This document shows, in pieces, positions 18,787 through 26,624 of a DNA stretch of 64,000 bases; the stretch's first letter is position 1, and the number at the start of each line of letters is the position of its first letter. Source of the stretch: Fimbriimonadaceae bacterium. GTDB taxonomy: Bacteria; Armatimonadota; Fimbriimonadia; Fimbriimonadales; Fimbriimonadaceae. The notes below the pieces were generated by a model, which saw only the letters and a list, made by a program, of their open reading frames with translations, was not told where the DNA came from and did no database searches. Both the position numbers and the translations under genes were made by a program. The stretch spans positions 1,916,218 through 1,980,217 of the forward strand of contig CP075365.1 in assembly GCA_019454125.1 (NCBI GenBank), read 5' to 3'.

Positions 18787-18853
18787 TCATGCCTCGGCAC
18801 GCCCCGTGCCGAGGCTATTTTCATGCCTCGGCACGCCCCGTGCCGAGGCTATT
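18787..18853. repeat. Two tandem copies of a 33-bp REP-like palindrome
   Basis: Copies at 18787-18819 and 18821-18853 (period 34). Each reads TCATGCCTCGGCACG, a three-base loop CCC, then CGTGCCGAGGCTATT, so GCCTCGGCACG pairs with CGTGCCGAGGC over 11 bp. The copies are identical. The ends TCAT and TATT are conserved in most copies of the family. Confidence 0.9.
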
Positions 18854-18900
18854 CTCGACCGACTACTCCTGCTCGGCCGTGCTGGACATCGCGAGCGCCG

Positions 18901-18931
18901 GGTGCACAAGACATCACCCCGTCCACGCGCC
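18901..18931 (+). repeat. Island-flanking repeat, left copy
   Basis: GTGCACAAGACATCACCCCG followed by TCCACGCGCC. A near-identical copy (one base different in 30) lies at 26261-26292 in the same orientation, on the other side of the accessory island, and a diverged inverted copy is at 19019-19042. Confidence 0.8.
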
Positions 18932-18950
18932 CGCACACGCATCGGGCCGT

Positions 18951-19004
18951 TCATGCCTCGGCACGCCCCGTGCCGAGGCTATTCTTTCATGCCTCGGCAC
19001 GCCC
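18951..19004. repeat. REP-like palindrome: one full copy plus a half copy
   Basis: The full copy is 18951-18983. A second starts at 18987 (TCATGCCTCGGCACGCCC), but after 19004 the right arm is replaced by TGTATGGTG, so it is a broken element. The intervening sequence is TTT. No coding sequence is credible between 18666 and 19415 apart from these repeats. Confidence 0.85.
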
Positions 19005-19018
19005 TGTATGGTGTCAAG

Positions 19019-19042
19019 GCGCGTGGACGGGGTGACGTCCTG
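19019..19042 (-). repeat. Inverted copy of the island-flanking repeat
   Basis: GCGCGTGGACGGGGTGACGT is the reverse complement of the 18901 element with one mismatch in these 20 bases, so 18905-18931 and 19019-19042 could pair as a long inverted repeat enclosing the REP copies. Confidence 0.7.
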
Positions 19043-19293
19043 CGCAGGCCGCCAGTGGAGGAACCCGAGATTGGGTAGCACCCGTGGGGTCCGAGGGCAC
19101 GCCCCGCCTTTTCCTTGCTTCGTCCACGCGTCCCGACGCACGGTAAACGCACGGTCAACGCACGGATAACGCAAGGGTCACACGCGCGCGGCACGCGTCG
19201 GATCGTCCTCTGCCGAAAGCTCGATGAGGGGCTCACCACCCTGCCGCTGGTCGAGCGCGGGGAGCTGCCACTGGGAGGCCGACGTGCCTCTTT

Positions 19294-19326
19294 TCATGCC
19301 TCGGCACGCCCCGTGCCGAGGCTATT
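19294..19326. repeat. REP-like palindrome, last left-hand copy
   Basis: Full 33-bp copy identical to those at 18787 and 18951, standing 90 bases before the first aldehyde dehydrogenase fragment. Confidence 0.88.
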
Positions 19327-19415
19327 CTTGAGCGGCCGCTCCTGCCCCGCAACGACTAACCCCTGGTGCACCATCTCCCTCGCCTAGCCCCTCGCCCCCA
19401 AGCGATCCCTGCGGC

Positions 19416-19790
19416 GTGGTCACGCCCTCCGGGCAGGCCCTCGCGTTTGACCAGTTTAGCCTCGGCACCGTGCCCCGCACGCCCAAGGAGCAGGTGGACG
19501 CGGCCGTCGCCGCCCACGAGGCGTTCCTCACCTGGCGCGAGCAGAGCTGGGTCAAGCGCGGCGAGGTCATCGACGAGCTCGCCCAGCTCATCAAGCGCGA
19601 CGTCGAGAGCCTGAGCCGCATGGTCACCATCGAGTGCGGAAAGCCCATCAACGAGGGCCGCGCCGACGTGGTCGAGGCGCTGCACATGGCCCAGTACGTG
19701 GCCGGCCTCAGCCGCCTGCCCTATGACCACGTCATCAGCAGCCAGATCGCCGCCAAGGACGCCTACACCGTCCGCAAGCGATCAATCTAG
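19416..19790 (+). pseudogene. Aldehyde dehydrogenase 5' fragment, copy A
   Basis: From about 19465 the translation (GTVPRTPKEQVDAAVAAHEA onwards, through VTIECGKPINEGRADVVEAL, to KDAYTVRK) matches residues about 40-150 of the aldehyde dehydrogenase at 24528-26043. The first 16 or so codons (MVTPSGQALAFDQF) are unrelated to that gene, and the frame stops right after VRK with RSI and TAG. The catalytic Cys and Glu and most of the cofactor site are missing, so it is not an enzyme. It is an open 124-codon frame with few differences, so recent duplication is likely. Its end overlaps the stop of the converging gene by 9 bases. Confidence 0.85.
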
Positions 19791-20573
19791 AGTGGCCAAG
19801 AACTGTTCGTCGACGAACCACTTACCGTTTACGGCAAAAATGGGCTCTTGAAGAGCTTTCGAGTTCTTCCCGACCTTGGCTGACGCTGCTCCGAGCGGCA
19901 AGACGACTTGGCCGACACGACTGTCAATTGTCGCGAGCCCAGACGCGTGGTTTTGATTAACAGGCAGCCGACTCGCGCGCGCCCATTCGACGAGGTCGAG
20001 GCACGGACGCCCGCCAGGCCCCTCGTAACGCTCGACTTTTTCGCCGTGCACGATTCTATCTACTCCTTTGGTCGCTGTCCTCCCGGTCAAGCCTCCGATA
20101 ACGGCTCGAGCCAAGCCTTCGACGAGCTCGCGGTCGGCCGCTTGATCGGAGGCGACGACTGTAAACCCATCTTGCCCCTTTACCCTCCGGTAACTCATAA
20201 AGCAGCTGACCATTTGCCCCTGGGAACGCCAGTGGACGCTGGCCTCGGAGTCTTGATTGAACGCCGCTTCGCCCGTGATTGGATGTCCGCTAATGAACGT
20301 TGCTTTCTGGCCCCGAACACCCGCTCCGATCATAAGGCTCCAATGTGTGTCGGACACCCTTTTGCCATTCGAGAGGTCATAGACCCGTAAGGTTATTTTC
20401 GCGTCGTCTGAACCTCGCCTCCAAGATATGGAGAACGGTTGTTCATCTCCCACGAAGCTCTCTTCGTGGAACCCCTTCAACCTGAGCGGAACTAGCGCCG
20501 AATAGCTGCGCAGGTCTTCTGTCGATATGGCCGACACTGAAATTAAGGCAGCAAGTGTTATGTAGGCAAGCAT
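19782..20573 (-). CDS. Exported protein of a duplicated two-gene unit, copy 1 (X1)
   Basis: A 263-residue protein with an N-terminal signal peptide (MLAYITLAALISVSA). No family is certain. The C-terminal 55 residues (VGQVVLPLGAASAKVG, then EPIFAVNGKWFVDEQFLATL) are almost identical to copy 2 at 22360-23151. They have the look of a copper-amine-oxidase-N-terminal-like beta module, a weak resemblance. The middle is only about half identical between copies. Its ATG is 1 base from the stop of the transglutaminase-like gene upstream, so the pair is an operon. Base composition is clearly less GC-rich than the flanks. Probably secreted with its partner. Confidence 0.7.
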   Translation of the reverse strand: MLAYITLAALISVSAISTEDLRSYSALVPLRLKGFHEESFVGDEQPFSISWRRGSDDAKITLRVYDLSNGKRVSDTHWSLMIGAGVRGQKATFISGHPITGEAAFNQDSEASVHWRSQGQMVSCFMSYRRVKGQDGFTVVASDQAADRELVEGLARAVIGGLTGRTATKGVDRIVHGEKVERYEGPGGRPCLDLVEWARASRLPVNQNHASGLATIDSRVGQVVLPLGAASAKVGKNSKALQEPIFAVNGKWFVDEQFLATLD

Positions 20574-20574
20574 T

Positions 20575-21795
20575 TTATCTTAGCACCTGGATTCGCGCTG
20601 TCGTGGTTGTCCGGGCCACGGTCTCACCTTGAGTTCCACCAGACCCAAAGTATTTATTAACTAAGCCAACGAACGACGATCCTTGGCTCGTTGGTGGACT
20701 GATCGGCTTCTGCCAATAGGAACTATTGGACGGGGTTTGAGGCCAGGACATTGGCGGATTTCGATAATTTGCCCCGTCAAGGCTGAACAGTTGTGCGGCC
20801 GCTGCGTCAAATGCTAAATCGCCTACGACGTTGTGTTGGTGGAAGTTAAAGTCGTATACCTGATAATACGTCAAGAGGGTAGCGTCTCGTCCTGTCCCGC
20901 AAAGCCAGTTCGTCCAAAAACCTACGTTGGGATCAGCCCTTTCCTGAATAGCGAGAAGGGGAACTCCTAAACTGCTAGTGCAGATCTGCAGGTAAAAAGA
21001 GATGTCTTGACAATCACCACTTACAATGAAATTGTAAGGCGTGCGCTCGGCAAAGAGCTGGGTTAGATTGTATCGGTAGGACACTGGGCCTTCATCGGCC
21101 ACAGACGTCACTTCTGAGAATCGAGGAGTACTGTAGTCATAGAAAAAAATGGGATAAAGACCGGGATCACAATGGTACCAGAACAAATAGTATGTGCACT
21201 TGTTCCTTACGTTTGATGCGCCTGCGAAGCCAGTTGCAAACCGGCATGCGTCTTCTAAGACGTTCGTCCAAACCGGCAACTGTCGCCCATACGGCGAGCC
21301 GAGCGGCTTGGCGTCAGTCAGGTAGAGCCTTGTCCCAGCATTGCCAGCTAGGCCGGTGACGGTTGACTGGCAGGAGAACGGGAGGATGAAATCGCCAAGC
21401 GTCACGAAATCAGGGATGCCGCTGAGAGCGAACTCGACCGTCGCCTGTCCGCCTGGCGTGAAGTGCACGTTGAACGTCGACGGCGACGCCATAACCGTGA
21501 AAGTGCCACTAGCCGTGTGGTACGTGCAAGGGTCGATCGTTACGACGGCGTCGTGCTCGGTCGGCCCCGTGTACCCGAAAGTCATCTTCACTGTCTTACC
21601 GCTGCTCCCCCGTATCCAGGAAACGGCTGGCGCACCGCCAATGCCTTCGTGCGCCGGGTACTCAGCCGGAAACAGCCCGGCAGAGGTCAAGCGTTCACTC
21701 GCAAGATAATCGACCAGGAGCAACTCGTACGGAGGCACCTCCCCCCCCCCGCAAGCATAGCGGTAAGGCCCGCTACAGCATTTAGAGCCGCCCAA
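20575..21795 (-). CDS. Transglutaminase-like protein of the duplicated unit, copy 1 (Y1)
   Basis: A 406-residue frame from a TTG at 21795. The N-terminal half is beta-rich (Ig-like), followed by VWTNVLEDACRFATG. The C-terminal half holds a candidate Cys-His-Asp triad: SGDCQDISFYLQI (Cys), FNFHQHNVVGD (His) and LAFDAAAAQL (Asp). All three are conserved in copy 2 (NGDCQDVSFYLQI, FNFHQHN, TYDAACAQV), although the surrounding sequence has diverged. This is the transglutaminase/NlpC-like order, so a secreted cysteine acyltransferase or peptidase is plausible. The better ATG (21800, giving MTWAALNAVAGLTAMLA) is out of frame by the ten-G tract at 21741-21750, so the true N-terminus is uncertain. Confidence 0.65.
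   Translation of the reverse strand: MGGSKCCSGPYRYACGGGEVPPYELLLVDYLASERLTSAGLFPAEYPAHEGIGGAPAVSWIRGSSGKTVKMTFGYTGPTEHDAVVTIDPCTYHTASGTFTVMASPSTFNVHFTPGGQATVEFALSGIPDFVTLGDFILPFSCQSTVTGLAGNAGTRLYLTDAKPLGSPYGRQLPVWTNVLEDACRFATGFAGASNVRNKCTYYLFWYHCDPGLYPIFFYDYSTPRFSEVTSVADEGPVSYRYNLTQLFAERTPYNFIVSGDCQDISFYLQICTSSLGVPLLAIQERADPNVGFWTNWLCGTGRDATLLTYYQVYDFNFHQHNVVGDLAFDAAAAQLFSLDGANYRNPPMSWPQTPSNSSYWQKPISPPTSQGSSFVGLVNKYFGSGGTQGETVARTTTTARIQVLR
21741..21750 (-). repeat. Ten-base homopolymer G tract at the start of Y1
   Basis: Ten consecutive C on the plus strand (G in the gene). The ATG at 21800 is joined to the main frame only if the tract has 8 or 11 G; with 10, only the TTG at 21795 gives the long protein. 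The corresponding tract in copy 2 has 4 G. It could be a phase-variable contingency tract or a homopolymer miscount. Confidence 0.6.
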
Positions 21796-21921
21796 GTCAT
21801 GTAACTAGTATAAGGCACATTTTGGCGATGCGGGACTAAATGCCCAACAGAAGACCACGAACCCCGGACCCGCTCCCTTGCACCCTAAAGCGTACAATCA
21901 AACTCAGGACAAGCAAGAGAC

Positions 21922-22362
21922 ATGAGCGCGACATTGATCCATCCCAACGAGACCGGCGTGCAGGTGCGCGCCCTCATCAACAACGAGTGGGTGACGGCCA
22001 GCGAGACCTTCCAGAGCCTCAACCCCGCCAACCGTGAGCACATCGTCGGCACCGTGCCCCGCACCCCAAGGAACAGGTGGACGCCGCCGTCGCCGCCGCC
22101 CACGAGGCCTTCCTCACCTGGCGCGAGCAGAGCTGGGTCAAGCGCGGCGAGGTCATCGACGAGCTCGCCCAGCTGATCAAGCGCGACGTCGAGAGCCTGA
22201 GCCGCATGGTCACCATCGAGTGCGGCAAACCGATCAACGAGGGCCGCGCCGACGTGGTCGAGGCGCTGCACATGGCCCAGTACGTGGCCGGCCTCAGCCG
22301 CCTGCCCTACGGCCACGTGATCAGCAGCGAGATCGCGCCTACGTCGTGCGAAAGGCGAGCTA
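21922..22362 (+). pseudogene. Aldehyde dehydrogenase 5' fragment, copy B
   Basis: Begins with the authentic ALDH start (MSATLIHPNETGVQVRALIN). Around 22066 one C is missing from CGCACCCCCAAGG, shifting the frame; the match then continues from VDAAVAAAHEAFLTWREQSW to AYVVRK and ends AS, TAG at 22360-22362. A 10-base deletion lies near 22337. It stops at the same ALDH codon as copy A (after VRK) and is likewise followed directly by the 3' end of an X gene. Catalytic half absent. Sequence upstream of the start (21800-21921) is shared with copy C, so its promoter region was duplicated too. Confidence 0.85.
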
Positions 22363-23151
22363 GTTCAGCGTCGCCAAGAACTGTTCGTCGACGAACCACT
22401 TGCCGTTTACGGCAAAGATCGGCTCACGAAGCGTCTGGAGTTTGTTGCCGACCTTCGCGGAGGCGGCTCCAAGCGGAAAGACGACGTGGCCAACACGGCT
22501 GTCAAGCGCTGCAATGCCCGAGACATGGTTTCGACGCAAGACTAAGCGACGAGCATTCGCCCACCCTTCGAGGTCAAGACAAGGAAACCCCGCCGGGCCG
22601 TCGTAGCATTCGACGGTTGCGCCATTGATCGCACGATCCGCTCCCTTCTTCGCGTCTCGACCCGTTAGGCAACCGATCACCGCTCTGGCCACACCTTCAA
22701 CGAGTAAGGCATCGGTAACGGAGTCATCGGAAAGATGAGTCCATTTTCCACGCGAACCTCCGACTCGGTAACGCATTTTAGCGCTAACAAGTAGCTCTCC
22801 AAGTCGCCAGTGAACGGCCGGGACTTGACTTGAGTTAAAGGCGCCTTCGCCTACTACCGCATGCCCACTGAGAAGCGATTTTTTACCGGGCGCTGTTGAA
22901 GCCCCGATCACGCTCACCCAGAACTGATGGTCAACTTCCTGACCCTCTAGCTCGTATACGCTGAGTAACAGCTCTGCCGAATCAGAGGGCCTTTGCCAGA
23001 CAATCCTGGCAGGATTGACTCCAGATTGGCGAGAAACTTTGTACCCGTGTTCGGTGAGCGGCACCGACTTAACGAAGTGGAGCACATCGCCTGTTTGCAC
23101 GTCTGCGTTAGCAGTTTTGACAGACAGTATGAGAAGCAAGCTACTGAGCAT
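22360..23151 (-). CDS. Exported protein of the duplicated unit, copy 2 (X2)
   Basis: A 263-residue protein, exactly the length of copy 1 if the ATG at 23151 is used (a TTG at 23163 adds four residues). Signal peptide MLSSLLLILSVKTANA. The middle has diverged strongly from copy 1, but the following are shared: LVEGVARAVIG, LTGRDAKKGADR, PCLDLEGWA, and the nearly identical C-terminus ending NGKWFVDEQFLATLN. Two Cys (IGCLTG, FPCLDL) flank a conserved EGxARAVIGxLTG helix. It starts close to the Y2 stop, the same order as copy 1. Function unknown; secreted. Confidence 0.7.
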   Translation of the reverse strand: MLSSLLLILSVKTANADVQTGDVLHFVKSVPLTEHGYKVSRQSGVNPARIVWQRPSDSAELLLSVYELEGQEVDHQFWVSVIGASTAPGKKSLLSGHAVVGEGAFNSSQVPAVHWRLGELLVSAKMRYRVGGSRGKWTHLSDDSVTDALLVEGVARAVIGCLTGRDAKKGADRAINGATVECYDGPAGFPCLDLEGWANARRLVLRRNHVSGIAALDSRVGHVVFPLGAASAKVGNKLQTLREPIFAVNGKWFVDEQFLATLN

Positions 23152-23155
23152 GATG

Positions 23156-24404
23156 TTATTCAATGGTCAAAAGTTGACCTTGTTTGAGTGAACGCTGGAC
23201 AATCTCACCCTGAGGATTTTGGGAAAGAACGTAACTGAAAGTAAGGCCGCGATGTAGTGGCCCGATTGGAGGTATCGGAACGACTTCCGTTTGCCAATAA
23301 GAGTGTTGCGGAGGTGTCTCAAGGGGCCAAGCGATCGGCGGATTGTAATAGTTGTTGCCCACTAGATCTATTACTTGCGCACATGCGGCATCGTACGTGT
23401 CGTTGTCAAAGCTGTTATGCTGGTGGAAGTTAAATCCAAAAGACGTATAGTTACCAGGCAATGTCGCGTCGTTGCCAACCCCGCACAGGGGATTCGTTTG
23501 GAATGCCAGGGCTTGAATCGGATAACCCGGAGCAACGGGGAATTCCCTTATCGCCTTGAGTGGAACCCCAAGGGCACTTGTGGCAATCTGAAGGTAAAAG
23601 CTAACGTCTTGGCAGTCGCCGTTGACATAGAAATTGTTGGGCGTGCGACCAGCGAAGAACTCGGTCAAGTAGAATTTAAAATAATGAGCTGCAGCGTTTG
23701 GCCCCTGGGTACGTTCACACCAGTAAGGCTTATCTGGGTCATACACGAAGATAGGATAGTGCCACGGTTCTAAGGGGTCTTCATGGAACCAGAATAGATT
23801 GTAGGTGCAGCGGGCCCTAACGCTCGTTGCACCCGCATAACCCGTTGCAAAGCGGCACGCGTCCTCCAATACGTTTGTCCAAACCGGCAGCTGCCGCCCA
23901 TACGGCGAGCCGAGCGGCTTGGCGTCGGTCAGATAGAGCCTGGTGCCAGCGTTTCCTGCAAGGCCCGTGACGATGGACTGGCAAGAGAACGGGAGGCTGA
24001 AATTGCCAAGCGTCACGAAATCCGGGATTCCACTGAGTGAAAACTGCACGGTCGCCTGCCCGCCAGGCGTGAAGTGCACGTTGAACGTCGACGGCGACGC
24101 TGTAACCGTGAAAGTGCCACTAGCCGTGTGGTACGTGCAAGGGTCGATCGTTACGACGGCGTCGTGCTCGGTGGCCCCGTGCCGAAAGTCATCTTCACTG
24201 TCTTACGCGCTGCTCCCCGTATCAGAGAAACTGGCGGCGCACCGCCAGCCTTCGTGCGCCGGGTACTCAGCCGGAAACAACCCCGGCAGAGGTCAAGCGT
24301 TCACTCGCAAGATAATCGACCAGGAGCACACTCATTGCAGGCACCTCCCCGCAAGCATAGCGGTAAGGCCCGCTACAATTCTCATTTAGAGCCGCCCAAG
24401 TCAT
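23156..24404 (-). pseudogene. Transglutaminase-like protein of the duplicated unit, copy 2 (Y2), 5' part frameshifted as sequenced
   Basis: An uninterrupted 307-codon frame (24079-23156) covers everything from HFTPGGQATVQFSLSG to the stop, with the Cys-His-Asp residues intact (NGDCQDVSF, FNFHQHN, TYDAACAQV). Upstream of about 24168 the DNA still matches copy 1 but with an insertion or deletion every 10-20 bases, so the first 100 or so codons are out of frame. ATG at 24404 corresponds to the ATG at 21800 of copy 1. Either the gene is decaying from its 5' end, or the base calls are wrong in this stretch; in the latter case it is a full gene of about 410 residues. Confidence 0.6.
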
Positions 24405-24527
24405 GTAACTAGTATAAAGGCACATTTTGGCGATGCGGGACTAAATGCCCAACAGAAGACCACGAACCCCAGATACGCTCCCTTGCACCCTAAAGCGTAC
24501 AATCACACTCCAGGACAAGCAAGAGAC

Positions 24528-26043
24528 ATGAGCGCGACATTGATCCATCCCAACGAGACCGGCGTGCAGGTGCGCGCCCTCATCAACAACGAGTGGGTGA
24601 CAGCGAGACCTTCCAGAGCCTCAACCCCGCCAACCGTGAGCACATCGTCGGCACCGTGCCCCGCACCCCCAAGGAACAGGTGGACGCCGCCGTCGCCGCC
24701 GCCCCACAGGCCTTCCTCACCTGGCGCGAGTGGAGCTGGGTCAAGCGCGGCGAGGTCATCGACGGCTCGCCCAGCTCATCAAGCGCGCGACGTCGAGCCT
24801 GAGCCGCATGGTCACCCATCGAGTGCGGAAAGCCCATCAACGAGGGCCGCGCCGACGGTCGGGCGCTGCATGGCCGTCGTGGCCGGCCTCAGCCGCCTGC
24901 CCCTATGGCCACGTCATCAGCAGCGAGATCGCCGCCAAGGACGCCTACATCGTCCGCAAGCCCAAGGGCGTGGTCGGCGTCATCACCCCCTGGAACTTCC
25001 CCTTCGCCATCCCGCTCTGGGGCATCCTGCCGGCCGTGCTGGCGGGCAACACCGTCGTCTTCAAGCCCAGCGAGGAGACCCCCGTCGTCGCCCACCGCCT
25101 GGCCGAGCTCTTCCTTGAGGCGGGCTTCCCGAAGGGCGTCATCAACGTCGTCCACGGCTTCGGTGAGGAGACCGGTGCGGCGCTGGTCGGCAACCCGAAG
25201 GTCGACGTGATGGTCTTCACCGGCAGCCGCGCCGTGGGCAAGCACATCCAGCGCGAGGCCGCCGCCCAGGAGACGCATAAGTTCGTCGCCACCGAGCTCG
25301 GCGGCAAGAACGCGGTCATGGTGCTCGAGGACGCGAACCTCGACATCGCTGTCAACGCCTGCCTCCTCAGCGCCTTCAAGACCAGCGGCCAGCGCTGCGT
25401 CTCCTCGAACCGCCTCATCGTCGACCGCAAGCTCATCGACCCCTTCACCGAGCAGTTCCTGGACAAGGTCAAGCGGATCAAGGTCGGCGACGGCCTCGAA
25501 GAGGACACCTTCATGGGCCCGCTCATCAACCCCGACGGCGTCACGAAGTGGAAGCACCACAACGAGAAGGCGCGCGAGGAAGGCGGCGAGATCCTGCACG
25601 AAGGCAAGGAGATCACCGAGGGCCCGCTGGCCAACGGCAACTTTGTCGAGCCGTTCGTGTACCGGTTCCGGGAGTACAAGGAGGGGACGTACTGCCTGCG
25701 TGAAGAGGCCTTCAGCCCCCACACCTGCATCATCGGCGTCGACGGGCTCGAAGAGGCGGTGCGGGTCTATAACGACACCGACTATGGGTTGGCGATGGCC
25801 GTCATCACCGAGGACTACCGCAAGTGGCGCTGGGTGCGCGACCACGCCGATTTCGGCCTCGGCTACGTCAACCTGCCCAGCATCGGCGCCGAAGTCCACC
25901 TGCCCTTCGGCGGCGTGAAGAACTCCGGCAACGGCCACCCCGCCGCCGAGACCGCCCTCGACTACCTCACCCACCGCGTCGCCTTCACCGTCAACCATGC
26001 CGAAGAGATCGTCATGGCCCAGGGCCTCAGCACGAAGGTCTAA
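24528..26043 (+). CDS. NAD(P)-dependent aldehyde dehydrogenase, copy C (catalytic half intact, 5' third frameshifted as sequenced)
   Basis: Starts MSATLIHPNETGVQVRALIN like copy B. From 24905 to the stop the frame is perfect and typical of the ALDH superfamily: ITPWNFPFAIPLWGILPAVL, KPSEETP, FTGSRAVGKHI (Rossmann loop), ATELGGKNAV (catalytic Glu), SGQRCVSSNR (catalytic Cys), EEAFSPHT, PFGGVKNSGNGHPAAETALD. The last motif recalls ALDH7/aminoadipate-semialdehyde-type enzymes, so an amino-acid-derived semialdehyde is a possible substrate. Between about 24597 and 24905 many single-base and short indels relative to copies A and B break the frame. Full length would be about 505 residues. Confidence 0.75.
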
Positions 26044-26051
26044 CTCCGGAG

Positions 26052-26103
26052 CCCCCTCCTCGTTTTTCAGCGATGCCTCGTGCGCTGGAAAATGAGGAGG
26101 GGG
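26052..26103. repeat. Long hairpin element, family 2, copy 1
   Basis: The left arm CCCCCTCCTCGTTTTTCAGC (26052-26071) pairs with the right arm (26084-26103, GCTGGAAAATGAGGAGGGGG) with one or two mismatches, leaving a 12-base loop. It begins 9 bases after the ALDH stop, so it may also act as a terminator. Confidence 0.75.
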
Positions 26104-26260
26104 TTGGGGGTGGAGATCCCCCCGCCCGCGGGAGAGGCGGTGAGGGTGCAGCGAACGCAAAGCGCCGGGCTATTCCGAGACGAGTGTGAACCAGGGTGGC
26201 TGGGCACGATCACCCCGTCACCCTAGCCACCCGCCGCGCGGAATGTTACTTACGAACCGG

Positions 26261-26292
26261 GGTGCACAAGACATCACCCCGGCCACGCGCCA
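26261..26292 (+). repeat. Island-flanking repeat, right copy
   Basis: GTGCACAAGACATCACCCCG then GCCACGCGCC; matches the copy at 18901-18931 in direct orientation, 7.4 kb away. Confidence 0.8.
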
Positions 26293-26315
26293 GACGCCCT
26301 CAAGCGAAAACGCAG

Positions 26316-26347
26316 AATAGCCTCGGCACGGGGCGTGGCGAGGCATT
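26316..26347. repeat. REP-like palindrome, inverted copy
   Basis: AATAGCCTCGGCACG, GGG, then CGTGGCGAGGCATT: the reverse complement of the left-hand copies, apart from one base in the right arm and a shortened end. Confidence 0.8.
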
Positions 26348-26412
26348 AAAAAAGAGGAGCCAAGATGGCTCGATCCCAAGTCATGAGGAGGGGGTGGGGG
26401 GTGGCGATTCCT

Positions 26413-26444
26413 TCATGCCTCGACACGCCACGTGTCGAGGCTAT
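26413..26444. repeat. REP-like palindrome with compensatory changes
   Basis: TCATGCCTCGACACG, CCA, CGTGTCGAGGCTAT. Relative to the consensus, G to A in the left arm is matched by C to T in the right arm, so pairing is kept. A more degenerate relative is at 26488-26509 (CTCGGCA ... TGCCGAG). Confidence 0.8.
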
Positions 26445-26573
26445 CGCTCCGGCACATTGGCCCCCTTCAAGCCGAAAGATGACAGCAGCCTCGGCAGGGG
26501 CATGCCGAGTAAAAAGAAATGTCGGACTCCTGCAGTCGGGACACATTGAGGCGGGTGGCCAGGCTAACGGTAG

Positions 26574-26624
26574 CCCCCTCCTCGTCTTTGCCCGATGATC
26601 GTGCGGGCGAAAATGAGGAGGGGG
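26574..26624. repeat. Long hairpin element, family 2, copy 2
   Basis: CCCCCTCCTCGTCTTTGCCC (26574-26593) pairs with 26605-26624 (GGGCGAAAATGAGGAGGGGG). The inner stem differs from copy 1 on both arms, yet still pairs. Confidence 0.75.

Follow-up and report, generated by a model that had tools for sequence, protein, structure and literature searches.

A dispersed palindrome of a Fimbriimonadaceae genome as a probable REP element of a RAYT unit

The palindromes clustered in a 64,000-nucleotide stretch of a Fimbriimonadaceae genome (the window; positions 1916218–1980217 of an assembly searched as one contig of 2,652,248 bases) are very probably REP elements, that is, ends of a RAYT (TnpA-REP) unit that fold into hairpins and are not autonomous. 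Two features of a REP in the broad sense were found: a dispersed hairpin palindrome in the range of 20–50 nt and a RAYT gene lying between two inverted copies of it. An earlier reading based on the sequence of the window alone had called the palindromes REP-like. This interpretation is supported, as the element is neither confined to the window nor paired at chance level, and the support rests on cross-species evidence.

Copies in the window and across the genome

Four full copies lie on the plus strand at 18787–18819 (core 18791–18815), 18821–18853 (core 18825–18849), 18951–18983 (core 18955–18979), and 19294–19326 (core 19298–19322). They all have the form TCAT-GCCTCGGCACG-CCC-CGTGCCGAGGC-TATT, with a TCAT foot and a CCC loop, and their 25-bp cores are identical. 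A half copy on the same strand (18987–19006) retains the tag and the 5' arm only. To the right, an inverted copy on the minus strand (26316–26348) carries a one-base arm mismatch that leaves one stem position unpaired, and the plus-strand copy at 26413–26445 shows a compensated replacement of one stem pair, A-T instead of G-C, and one changed loop base. Finally, a decayed relative on the minus strand (26488–26511) keeps a 7-bp stem and is matched weakly by the element covariance model (E 0.106). The start positions of these copies and their kinds (full, half, inverted, compensated, or degenerate) had been given in the sequence-only reading and were confirmed. When up to three mismatches are allowed, the palindrome occurs six times in the window, compared with a mean of 0.01 and a maximum of 1 in 100 dinucleotide shuffles. 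Additionally, the fold of the element is very stable under DNA folding parameters.

The covariance model, built from 26 copies and run against the whole genome, detects 29 copies at 10 places, together with some weak relatives; the element therefore occurs well beyond the window. Apart from the six copies inside the window, there are seven at genome positions 1373469–1376489, five each at 914780–915204 and 2261843–2262436, two at 1715787–1716199, and single copies at 261454, 1685709, 1759402, and 1897962. The alignment behind the model (A1) omits three of the 29 copies, namely the tandem duplicates at L017 4241 and 5191 and the copy at L017 5348, which has two inner-type feet. Copies are present singly, in outward-facing pairs, and in longer tandem units. 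At L017, the tandem units are 1107 bp long and the members of the outward-facing pairs are 157 bp apart; at L020, the REP-bearing units measure 97 and 122 bp; and at L019, L023, and L024, solitary copies stand in unrelated contexts. The flank of the second window copy (18818–18899) recurs in L017 and L023 over 80–82 bp at 91–94% identity. Based on ORF overlap and codon-position GC, used without a gene caller, two of the 29 copies overlap the 3' ends of gene-like ORFs, one being the RAYT gene itself and the other an ORF in L019, and the L024 copy abuts an ORF end. A clean empty site was not found in the sole same-genus genome, G053. Compared with L024, the homology in G053 begins at the REP edge and has no counterpart on the other side, and no synteny was found across the site at L019 or at the aldehyde dehydrogenase locus.

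Two further features of these loci were observed. The 1107-bp units of L017 (2971–5372) each hold, in addition to the outward-facing REP pair, a reading frame ending in VPEPAGFLGASTGALLLARKR, a C-terminal end that resembles a sorting signal. Arrays of a 7-bp unit (CGCCAAC) are found at L017 2484–2597 and at L020 about 991–1158.

The stretch between the two REP clusters of the window had been described as an accessory island, a term that is only partly apt. Most of it is the 5' region of an aldehyde dehydrogenase gene repeated three times in tandem (19462–19927, 21172–22505, and 23783–26043), with a divergent gene between the copies. The longest copy starts near 24511, and the full C-terminal part is present only in the last copy, where the frame begun at 24528 has five stops and an open frame runs from 24730. 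G053 has one aldehyde dehydrogenase copy in a different context. At 19424–19468 (minus strand), a REP inner flank with half a palindrome is joined directly to an aldehyde dehydrogenase copy that is truncated: the segment is 93% identical to the REP flank at L016 2803–2846 and passes into the aldehyde dehydrogenase copy at 19462–19468. The REPs thus stand at the edge of a rearrangement, the likely cause of which is described below.

Other repeats and genes accompany this region. Reading frames at 20575–21795 and 23156–24079 (minus strand) encode related proteins with common GDCQD and NFHQHN stretches; neither has a Pfam or NCBIfam match, and they may be secreted transglutaminase-like proteins. 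A further dispersed repeat, around GTGCACAAGACATCACCCC, lies near the REPs on both sides (18900–18938, 19011–19046, and 26255–26291) and is also present in G053 (L202 17046–17081 and 18158–18194). A second inverted-repeat family, CCCCCTCCTCG...TGAGGAGGGGG, is placed on either side of the right REP cluster (26052–26103 and 26574–26624), with a half copy at 26369–26407.

RAYT genes and the elements at their ends

A Y1_Tnp search of the genome returned two genes, both outside the window, in agreement with the earlier remark that the window holds no RAYT. The first (L017:5284–5946, genome about 1375783–1376445, minus strand) lies ~540 kb from the window and encodes 220 aa. It scores 100.2 bits against NF047646, the NCBIfam model of the REP-associated tyrosine transposase (cut-off 80), and 42.4 against Y1_Tnp (cut-off 23). 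With the NCBIfam IS200 transposase model, it reaches 28.2 bits, below the cut-off of 55, and an IS200/IS605 insertion sequence was rejected on this ground. Searched against the PDB, a profile of RAYT relatives has its best match in 4er8, named TnpArep (E 3.4e-9). The protein carries the motifs NHLH (HUH), WQ, and YVHQNP (Y-x3-NP); His62, His64, Tyr135, Asn139, and Pro140 are invariant in 16 of 16 RAYTs (alignment A2), of which 11 have HHuH rather than NHuH.

The search for a REP-associated tyrosine transposase that the sequence-only reading had proposed thus led to a gene with the same palindrome, inverted, at both ends (L017 5348 and 5959). The downstream copy (L017 5348) extends into the coding frame of the RAYT and bears an inner-type foot on either side, which suggests joining to the neighboring tandem unit. 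L025 holds a decayed RAYT gene that has lost an internal segment; it has palindromes at both ends (2295 and 2669), their tags facing outward. Beside a REP copy at L016 lies a putative fragment of a RAYT start, an assignment that is our own. The second RAYT (L026 2255–2954; 207 aa) barely passes the NF047646 cut-off, at 81 bits against 80, and has imperfect 54-bp inverted ends of its own, which are unlike the REP of the window.

Of the 26 aligned copies, 19 have TCAT as their outer foot, and in every copy this foot closes with AT. No copy has a GTAG foot on the CAT strand; on the opposite strand one of the 26 does, provided that the first base of the stem is included. Membership of the GTAG superfamily (GTAG or GT[AG]G foot) was rejected for this reason, as was membership of the CGTC superfamily, CGTC being absent from the feet of the 26 copies. 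The tail that follows the stem differs by flank class (TATTC, TGTCC, TCTTT, or TAGTC), and a T run is mostly absent. Upstream elements in the relatives follow the pattern T-[GC]CC-arm-loop-arm-GG[GC], in which the T is outermost, and the downstream elements mirror it. The stem base is CCTC/GAGG in most relatives and thus nearly constant; the stem tip varies between species. The loop has three bases in nine genomes, and the arms are 33–54 nt apart at further RAYT loci within the clade (L062, L063, L068, L072, L170, and L172–L176). Within the three-base-loop group of nine genomes, the loop begins with C on the tagged CAT strand in 29 of the 30 elements whose foot is unambiguous, eight elements with an ambiguous foot side being left out. 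Loop and foot thus share an orientation, and the strands of the element differ, in line with an enzyme that reads one folded strand.

Of 85 genomes of the same family, 34 have a RAYT match at E 1e-10 or better. An unsupervised listing of hairpins at 30 RAYT loci revealed palindromes of a common plan at the ends of many. We then applied a fixed rule (two 11-base arms with at least 10 of 11 positions paired, 2–59 bases apart, and CC/GG near the outer ends) to 27 RAYT loci from 16 genomes, taken from a set of 32 loci; three larger copies of other loci and two loci cut by a contig end were set aside. An element is present upstream of 23 of the 27 genes, downstream of 25, and at both ends of 23. 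In contrast, 5 of 89 control windows of equal size away from RAYT genes satisfy the rule, with the CC/GG requirement applied equally to them. Under this rule, L066 and L168 have no element, and L060 and L176 have one at one end only.

Covariation of enzyme and element, and alternative explanations

The paired changes among copies had been taken earlier to indicate that the hairpin itself is maintained. Across species, the test of covariation is positive. Within the genome, the change amounts to one pair in one copy, and the covariation test is weak: 16 of 500 shuffles equal the single compensated cell. In-genome covariation was therefore dropped as the main proof, and the relatives were examined instead. 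In nine three-base-loop elements, 7 of 11 pairs are changed on both sides, in 19 cells, a number that none of 500 shuffles reaches. The elements of this alignment (A4, one per genome) were chosen for three-base loops and perfect stems, and its 100% pairing is thus partly a matter of construction. The independent evidence for the elements is their position at the ends of RAYT genes.

Moreover, RAYT protein distance correlates with stem-arm distance over the 27 loci (r 0.46; 0 of 5000 permutations as high). The RAYT of L057 (genome G035) is 57% identical to the first RAYT described here, and its 25-base palindrome is identical. A cross-species model built from the nine elements matches 31 of the 85 family genomes, with up to 54 matches in one (G029). 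By this model, the element is carried by 14 of the 17 genomes whose RAYT is close (E 1e-28 or better) and by 17 of the 68 others (p 2.2e-5). The three close-RAYT genomes that the model misses, G011, G012, and G034, all have long-loop elements. Ten of the 85 (G003, G007, G010, G014, G017, G030, G048, G063, G068, and G073) have the element with no RAYT match at E 1e-10, as would follow RAYT gene loss; their elements are possible survivors. In the wider genome collection, the best alignment of the RAYT among the matches listed is to an Armatimonadetes genome (42%), and the next best among them, at about 30%, are to other phyla.

These associations bear on the explanation that survives best beside the REP/RAYT reading, namely purely passive spread, in which longer segments carrying the copies were duplicated and recombined and the RAYT is no longer, or never was, involved. 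The long tandem units of L017 (1107 bp) and L020 (97 and 122 bp) and the REP half fused to the duplicated aldehyde dehydrogenase are what such spread would leave. However, solitary copies stand in unrelated contexts, RAYT and stem vary together, and the catalytic motifs of the RAYT are intact, so we consider passive spread alone improbable, although it deserves some weight.

Much less probable is a role at the RNA level, in which the palindromes would be terminators or stabilizers of mRNA 3' ends that lie beside RAYT genes only incidentally. A permissive terminator scan accepts all but one of the four full copies (18787–19326), the copies of L019 and L024 overlap or abut the 3' ends of gene-like ORFs, and the fold, computed with DNA parameters, is very stable. 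Against this, neither of the two right-cluster copies scores in the scan, a search of Rfam with the element gave no match to a known RNA family, and the finding that 23 of 27 RAYT genes have an element on each side is left unexplained. Since the tails vary by flank class and mostly have no T run, terminator function was rejected as the main explanation. Double-stranded operators of a dimeric regulator are very unlikely, for although a nearly perfect dyad whose changes between species are compensated would also suit a protein dimer site, the two feet differ, foot and loop share an orientation in 29 of 30 elements, the arms are 33–54 nt apart in some relatives, and the elements are placed at both ends of RAYT genes.

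Under the REP/RAYT reading, the RAYT, as an HUH enzyme, would bind the single-stranded hairpin formed from one strand and would recognize it by four features: the CAT foot, how the loop is oriented, a constant CCTC/GAGG base, and the tip that is particular to the species. The tyrosine of the enzyme would cut next to the element, and the end would then be joined to another location. We infer such movement by the RAYT from sequence comparison; the window copies would be its products or would stem from duplication of longer units that contain REPs. The perfect inverted arms would also make rearrangement-prone sites, and rearrangement at them is the likely source of the REP/aldehyde dehydrogenase junction and of the tandem arrays. 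Weighing against the reading are the absent GTAG foot, a copy number (29) that is low for REPs, the ten element-bearing genomes in which no RAYT match was found, the lack of a clean empty site in G053, the choice of hairpins behind the perfect pairing in A4, and the four RAYT loci that have no element, or one at a single end, under the fixed rule.

Relation to known systems and significance

GTAG REP/RAYT systems (REPtrons), whose copies are mostly extragenic, are described from E. coli, Pseudomonas, and Stenotrophomonas (PMC2817692 and PMC8266576). The present system has in common with REPtrons a RAYT matching NF047646 with HUH and Y-x3-NP motifs, a gene placed between two inverted REPs, dispersed copies, inverted pairs, tandem units, and covariation of stem and RAYT. 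It differs in its CAT foot, the near-constant CCTC/GAGG base, the low copy number, and the long-loop forms of relatives.

PMC6006769 describes TnpAY1 subclass 2.6 (RAYT group 5) as flanked by "atypical secondary structures", which are weak and mostly in Bacteroidetes, and reports atypical structures without GT[AG]G for subclass 2.6 and class 3. The motifs listed there for subclass 2.6 (NH[LIV]H, WQ, and YIH[QN]NP; Table 1) resemble NHLH, WQ, and YVHQNP of the first RAYT, and GT[AG]G is likewise absent here. In contrast, the hairpins described here are strong and perfect and HHuH is found in 11 of 16 RAYTs of alignment A2, the comparison being one of motifs only.

According to PMC3733652, REPs fall into a GTAG and a CGTC superfamily, and the CGTC repeats are reported there without an attached RAYT. 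The present element is, like those, a short tagged palindrome without GTAG; unlike those, its foot is CAT and a RAYT is attached. The same text gives GGGGWSAS as the repeat consensus of TIRtrons/TIRYT. The likeness to these lies in a Y1 transposase between inverted repeats that are unlike GTAG REPs, and in the imperfect long ends at L026; GGGGWSAS was not seen in the element family of the window. Collectively, these features place the system among REP/RAYT systems broadly defined, and its element is neither a GTAG nor a CGTC REP. The kind is already known; what sets this variant apart is its tag, its constant base combined with a variable tip, its long-loop forms, and its host group. A narrow literature search, mostly outside subscription papers, found no paper linking Armatimonadetes with RAYTs or REPs.

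Opinion could go either way on whether the variant is a separate Armatimonadota REP/RAYT lineage with a two-part code, in which a lineage-wide part (CAT foot, CCTC/GAGG base, and oriented C-loop) would be combined with a species-specific tip that changes with the RAYT. Such a lineage would include the long-loop forms of 33–54 nt, with short- and long-loop ends serving closely related enzymes.

The experiments on the choice of REPs by RAYTs that these papers describe concern GTAG REPs of Proteobacteria. Here, the host belongs to a little-studied bacterial group, the end signature is unusual, and one bacterial family provides some 27 enzyme/element pairs with constant and variable element parts. 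The series includes enzymes 57% identical with an identical element, as well as related enzymes with short or long loops, and it thus constitutes a natural set for mapping recognition residues.
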